DNA of 64,000 bases from Acetobacterium woodii DSM 1030 (GTDB lineage: Bacteria; Bacillota; Clostridia; Eubacteriales; Eubacteriaceae). The notes beneath the pieces are model-generated. The model searched no databases and was not told the DNA's origin. It was given only the letters and a program-made list of their open reading frames with translations. Position numbers and translations under genes: made by a program. Shown here one piece after another: positions 43,204-43,527 of this stretch. Location of the stretch: assembly GCF_000247605.1 (NCBI RefSeq), contig NC_016894.1:1539732-1603731 (forward strand). The letters are read 5' to 3'. How positions within the stretch are numbered: the stretch's first letter is position 1; the number at the start of each line of letters is the position of its first letter.

Positions 43204-43230
43204 AAGGACCTCCCCATTAATTAAATTATA

Positions 43231-43401
43231 TCGGCAATTGCGAAATTAAAAAACGTCGAACAACAGTTACTTTGGGTGAAGTTTCCACAAACGATTTCGT
43301 AACGTGTAGGCGAACAGTTCATCGAACTGTCCGCCGTACAGTGTAGAAATTGTTTCGTGCGAAACGGCACCCAAAGCTCACGGCACTTTCGCAGTTACCT
43401 A
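43231..43401. repeat. Palindromic MITE-like element, long form (copy C)
   Basis: 171 bp element whose ends (TCGGCAATTGCGAAA and CTTTCGCAGTTACCTA) match the 52 bp copies. The right 32 bp match copy B with four changes. It is flanked by perfect 12 bp direct repeats AATTAAATTATA (43219-43230 and 43402-43413). The extra internal part is a 107 bp near-perfect hairpin (43270-43376): CTTTGGGTG pairs with CACCCAAAG, inner GGCGAACAGTTC with GAACTGTCCGCC, loop ATC. It sits between two divergent two-component operons. Confidence 0.78.
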
Positions 43402-43527
43402 AATTAAATTATAGGCAATTGCCTGATTTAAATCATACCATATTTTCAGGGTTTTATATAGCTTTAAGATTTCGGCACTATAATTAGACTGTTAAGGTAT
43501 AATTTAAAATAAGGAAGGAGTCGCTTT

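Follow-up and report, generated by a model that had tools for sequence, protein, structure and literature searches.

A genus-wide hairpin MITE of Acetobacterium woodii, apparently undescribed and probably mobilised in trans by a distant IS1182 relative

What is the long palindromic element that separates two divergent response regulator genes in Acetobacterium woodii, and what put it there? The window, i.e. the whole stretch of 64,000 nucleotides analysed here, holds one such element, copy C, whose components are collected with the other features in Table 1. Copy C is 92% identical to the consensus of its family, and its two flanking duplications AATTAAATTATA, of 12 bp, agree at 12 of 12 positions. 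Its inner hairpin of about 107 nt closes on the loop ATC, while the outer stem is formed by the 15-bp ends themselves. Folded as DNA, the strand of copy C reaches -38.1 kcal/mol, where shuffles average -21.1 (z -4.9) and none of 200 attains this energy. Sequence and fold thus confirm the preliminary description of 43219-43413 as 171 bp with a nested 107-bp hairpin, a 3-nt loop and a perfect 12-bp duplication. The same description regarded 171 bp as a special long form, which was wrong: this is the standard length (86 of 124 copies) and copies of 52 bp are the minority.

Table 1. Features of the window and insertion sequences with matching ends.
Feature	Position or genome	Strand	Remarks
171-bp MITE (copy C)	43231..43401	+	1 of 86 copies of exactly 171 bp
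Left target-site duplication AATTAAATTATA	43219..43230	.	same as right copy
Right target-site duplication AATTAAATTATA	43402..43413	.	
Left terminal inverted repeat TCGGCAATTGCGAAA	43231..43245	+	2 mismatches to family end TAGGTAATTGCGAAA
Right terminal inverted repeat TAGGTAACTGCGAAA (minus-strand reading)	43387..43401	-	1 mismatch to TAGGTAATTGCGAAA
Nested hairpin core, 107 nt, 3-nt loop	43271..43377	+	from the fold; covaries between genus subfamilies
OmpR-type response regulator gene	42526..43203	-	ORF; identity by sequence inspection
Divergent response regulator gene, other side of copy C	43528..44196	+	ORF; identity by sequence inspection
52-bp deletion derivative	25935..25986	+	10-bp duplication
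52-bp deletion derivative	37584..37635	+	12-bp duplication with 1 mismatch
154-bp second MITE type	5186..5339	+	duplication TTAAGTGTGA/TTAAGTATGA; same end as 171-bp MITE
IS of 1677-1678 bp	G000 (A. woodii genome), G003		
IS of 1760-1761 bp	G003, G012, G015, G016		
IS of 1750 bp	G014		10 transposase copies

Further copies abound. The genome, searched as a single contig of 4,044,777 bases, contains about 120-126 of them (at least 120 in 4.04 Mb), found by matches to the ends and to an internal motif: the motif matches 126 times with at most 3 mismatches, against 1 match for its control. We mapped 124 end pairs genome-wide, a few of them mis-paired. Exactly 171 bp separate the outer limits of 86 pairs and 52 bp those of ten, only six of which are true 52-bp copies. 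Of the 124 mapped copies, 65 are bordered by exact duplications of 9-13 bp, and 95 when one mismatch is allowed, whereas shuffling of the flanks gives about 0.5 exact duplications per shuffle, nearly all expected fixed points. The duplication size of 10-13 bp proposed earlier is thus borne out, with 9-13 bp across mapped copies. It is hardly conceivable that duplications and repeats arose by chance or as assembly artefacts. We found no support for this, and against it stand the 223 genome matches of the 15-bp end TAGGTAATTGCGAAA with at most 1 mismatch (2 for a reversed-pattern control), the presence of the family in 16 further Acetobacterium genomes, and orthologous sites that are empty in congeners. 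The duplicated sequences have 17% GC, against 39% for the retrieved DNA. When empty sites are restored by joining the flanks, 33 of 35 lie outside ORFs of at least 120 aa, even though 79% of random positions fall inside such ORFs. Insertion is into AT-rich, mostly intergenic DNA, often just 5' of ribosome-binding sites.

The site of copy C has a history of its own. The left duplication lies 15 bp from the start codon of the minus-strand response regulator gene. In three congeners (G013, G016, G017) the orthologous spacer is empty; three others (G005, G010, G018) have a decayed relative of the element there, and several more a different palindromic insert. Moreover, TATAGGCAATTGCCTGATT, which adjoins the right duplication, appears to be what is left of an older copy, and the site was probably struck more than once. 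In other Acetobacterium genomes, the same intergenic sites are taken up by a second family of palindromic repeats (GTACCGACAATTG...CAATTGGTCGGTAC), which was seen at L353, L354, L357, L361 and L370, and in orthologues of window positions 43204-43527.

The ends of the MITE led to a candidate for its mobilisation. An unpaired end in the A. woodii genome (G000:1286540) brought us to a transposase frame, and full insertion sequences with TAGGTAATTGCGAAA ends were found in congeners. They measure 1.68-1.76 kb, encode a DDE transposase of 485-486 aa, and show duplications of 10-12 bp in 9 of the 12 full elements examined. This is the full-length, end-sharing transposon for which the preliminary description had proposed a search; the two checks it suggested, for further copies and for such a transposon, both support it. 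MITE and IS have only their ends in common, i.e. the 15 bp of TAGGTAATTGCGAAA, and as many as 23 bp for certain IS copies. The catalytic DDE residues D149, D290 and E428, in a DDE_Tnp_1-like domain, are invariant in 20 transposases. More distant relatives (from Clostridia, Lachnospiraceae, Halanaerobium and one MAG labelled Bacteroidales) share about 49-76% identity and keep the ends; those that do so are mostly Firmicutes. Where both ends could be located, duplications of 11-14 bp occur at 12 of about 19 loci, three of these loci being from Acetobacterium. The best curated model for the transposase is that of IS1182 (NF033551), at 60.8 and 69.5 bits, where the cut-off is 270. In Pfam, DUF772 exceeds its cut-off in both of the two proteins tested and PF01609 just does so in one. 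Judged by these matches, the transposase is related to IS1182 distantly, scoring far short of the curated threshold. It gave no match to an IS4 model in NCBIfam up to E = 1, and nothing significant in a sequence search of the PDB. The suggestion that the mobilising transposase was undescribed needs adjusting, as the protein can be recognised as a distant IS1182 relative. A literature search, with ISfinder outside its scope, returned no description of the MITE or its ends. Another IS, reached earlier by a PF01609 search (L061/L062), was rejected as partner, its ends GGGGCTTTTGCAAAA not matching those of the MITE. This IS is present in the A. woodii genome as two copies, 99.9% identical, with a frame of 536 aa.

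We consider it very probable, on these sequence grounds, that the 171-bp element is a MITE mobilised in trans by the DDE transposase that the 1.7-kb IS encodes. It is short, non-coding and multi-copy, with terminal inverted repeats, target-site duplications and ends common with an autonomous element. Since these ends are shared with a transposase-encoding transposon, the element belongs to a known class, with an unusually long hairpin. The IS1182-like transposase would bind both ends of the MITE, which would then be excised or copied and joined to target DNA, AT-rich and mostly intergenic, cut with a stagger of about 10-12 bp. This would leave duplications of 9-13 bp. The long hairpin might later provoke replication slippage between short repeats, yielding in place forms of 134, 105, 60 and especially 52 bp. 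Copy number, ends, duplications, the matching IS, deletion junctions and empty or filled orthologous sites can all be read from the genomes. The element is also palindromic, intergenic and present in more than 100 copies, as one would expect of a REP/BIME-type palindrome propagated by a RAYT (HUH, Y1) transposase. Such an origin is nevertheless very improbable, given that most copies have duplications of 9-13 bp and that an IS sharing their ends encodes a DDE transposase. Duplications of this kind are not known from RAYT-spread REPs. Mobilisation by the IS must in turn be reconciled with some awkward observations. The A. woodii genome has no intact transposase of this IS; it holds only two copies, one truncated and one frameshifted near residue 399, before the catalytic E428. 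Several copy-rich congeners (e.g. the single-contig G010) also lack an intact transposase gene, while G014 carries 10 near-identical transposase copies (L096, L106, L112, L118) and no hairpin MITE was found in it. The presence of the IS and that of the MITE therefore do not track each other in present-day genomes.

How did the short forms arise? All six true 52-bp copies correspond to the 171-bp consensus minus the 119 bp between two TGCGAAA repeats, with one common junction; shortened copies of other lengths have junctions at repeats of 2 to 9 bp. Each true 52-bp copy differs from its nearest 171-bp copy by 1-3 mismatches, but from any other 52-bp copy by at least 5. In addition, three congeners (G009, G010, G015) have 52-bp forms with the interiors of other subfamilies. 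The TGCGAAA junction, the distances to the nearest copies and the 52-bp forms of other subfamilies together indicate that shortening is recurrent. The earlier proposal that short forms are internal-deletion derivatives is thus upheld by their single 7-bp-repeat junction and by the proximity of each to some 171-bp copy. Shortening probably took place by replication slippage across the hairpin, after insertion. The second MITE type has an interior unrelated to that of the 171-bp MITE, without a long hairpin, and has three relatives in the congener G011, with duplications of 10-12 bp. A covariance-model search of G011 did not find the hairpin core.

The hairpin core raises a puzzle of its own. 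Of 19 genomes of the genus, 16 contain it according to a covariance model, with core counts that are rough, since they include antisense self-matches and are capped at 150 candidates. In a wider draw of 391 genomes of the class, searched with stricter filters and 8 candidates scored per genome, it matches only in the two known members of the genus. Between subfamilies of the genus, 15 of the 38 core pairs show double changes; 84 double-change cells were counted, where shuffles average 27 and reach at most 45. This covariation might suggest that the core is a host-selected structured RNA captured by transposon ends, a leader or an intercistronic processing or stabilising hairpin, whose old copies persist by regulating operons. 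The location of 34 of 48 copies just 5' of ribosome-binding sites between co-directional genes would also fit, as would copies in some congeners (L300, L301, L302, L328) whose core is still about 80-89% like the consensus although both transposon ends are barely recognisable or absent. Uniform decay does not explain these last copies, but the sample was picked by its core: found by core similarity, they were ascertained for good cores. Other evidence makes a captured host RNA unlikely. Within the A. woodii genome there is no excess of compensatory changes (11 seen, 11.2 expected), and broken core pairs are as numerous as expected (226 vs 225). In six orthologous pairs from two congeners the core diverges as fast as its flanks (about 94% vs 92-94% identity), and most species either lack the copy at tpiA-gpmI and pilD-pilC or have it deleted or interrupted there. 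Single-locus copies drift like their flanks and hence give no evidence of host function, though individual copies may have one. We read this as a core structure kept in transposing lineages and freely lost afterwards. One might go further and regard the core as a structured module on which selection acts at the element's own level, its fold kept by compensatory changes of new master copies, and its partner as a separate IS group. We find this possible but doubtful. The folded DNA or RNA would then perhaps aid transposition, or make insertion before ribosome-binding sites tolerable, and the group would be one with duplications of 10-14 bp and TAGG ends, mainly across Firmicutes.

Other searches touched on the core and its surroundings. 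The MITE had no Rfam match at gathering thresholds, and no match in phage records and viral contigs. In the window, the Rfam search placed three tandem c-di-GMP-I riboswitch aptamers on the minus strand at 27179-27561. In congeners, the MITE core repeatedly has a third hairpin element (core CAATCACAAGCTTGCTTGTAGTTGGCGACTGCCCGCGAC) nested within it (L335 8056-8181, L333 4568-4689, L343, L342, L359). The congener G013 (L331, L332) has clusters of 3-4 core copies within 1.5-3.5 kb, on one strand and at gene junctions. We dropped an attC-like (integron cassette) reading of these clusters because decayed transposon ends are present on several of the copies, and the copies are located at ordinary junctions within operons.

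The MITE family and its IS are new to the literature searched, if ordinary in kind: an apparently undescribed, genus-wide family is now joined to its transposon. Across 19 related genomes its sites are variously intact, shortened, empty or decayed, a natural data set on how MITEs outlive their transposase and on the collapse of long hairpins by slippage. Acetogens serve as industrial hosts. The copies may act on neighbouring genes, and at least 120 long intergenic hairpins, some near ribosome-binding sites, could have consequences for gene expression and for the stability of strains.

How does this system compare with known ones? The partner IS resembles the IS1182 family (e.g. IS1272) in its DUF772 and DDE architecture and in its single transposase gene of about 485 aa, with a match to NF033551 that is weak but significant (61-70 bits) and short of the cut-off of 270. 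IS1272 replaces inverted-repeat targets without target duplications (PMC5678879). Such palindrome targeting contrasts with the duplications of 10-14 bp left by the partner IS and with the AT-rich sites of the MITE copies tested. Duplications of about 10-13 bp are found in the IS4 family (e.g. IS231), and IS231 with its MIC derivatives is alike in duplication length and in having gene-less derivatives moved in trans, but the partner transposase lacks a match to an IS4 model in NCBIfam up to E = 1. Transcribed Correia elements can be substrates of RNase III (PMC10969869). Like RUP and ERIC, Correia elements share with our element a short, non-coding sequence, inverted ends, an often intergenic location and a transposase acting in trans. 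The ends, duplication length and partner of all three differ from those of the Acetobacterium MITE, which is further set apart by a nested hairpin of 107 nt whose pairing is kept between subfamilies.
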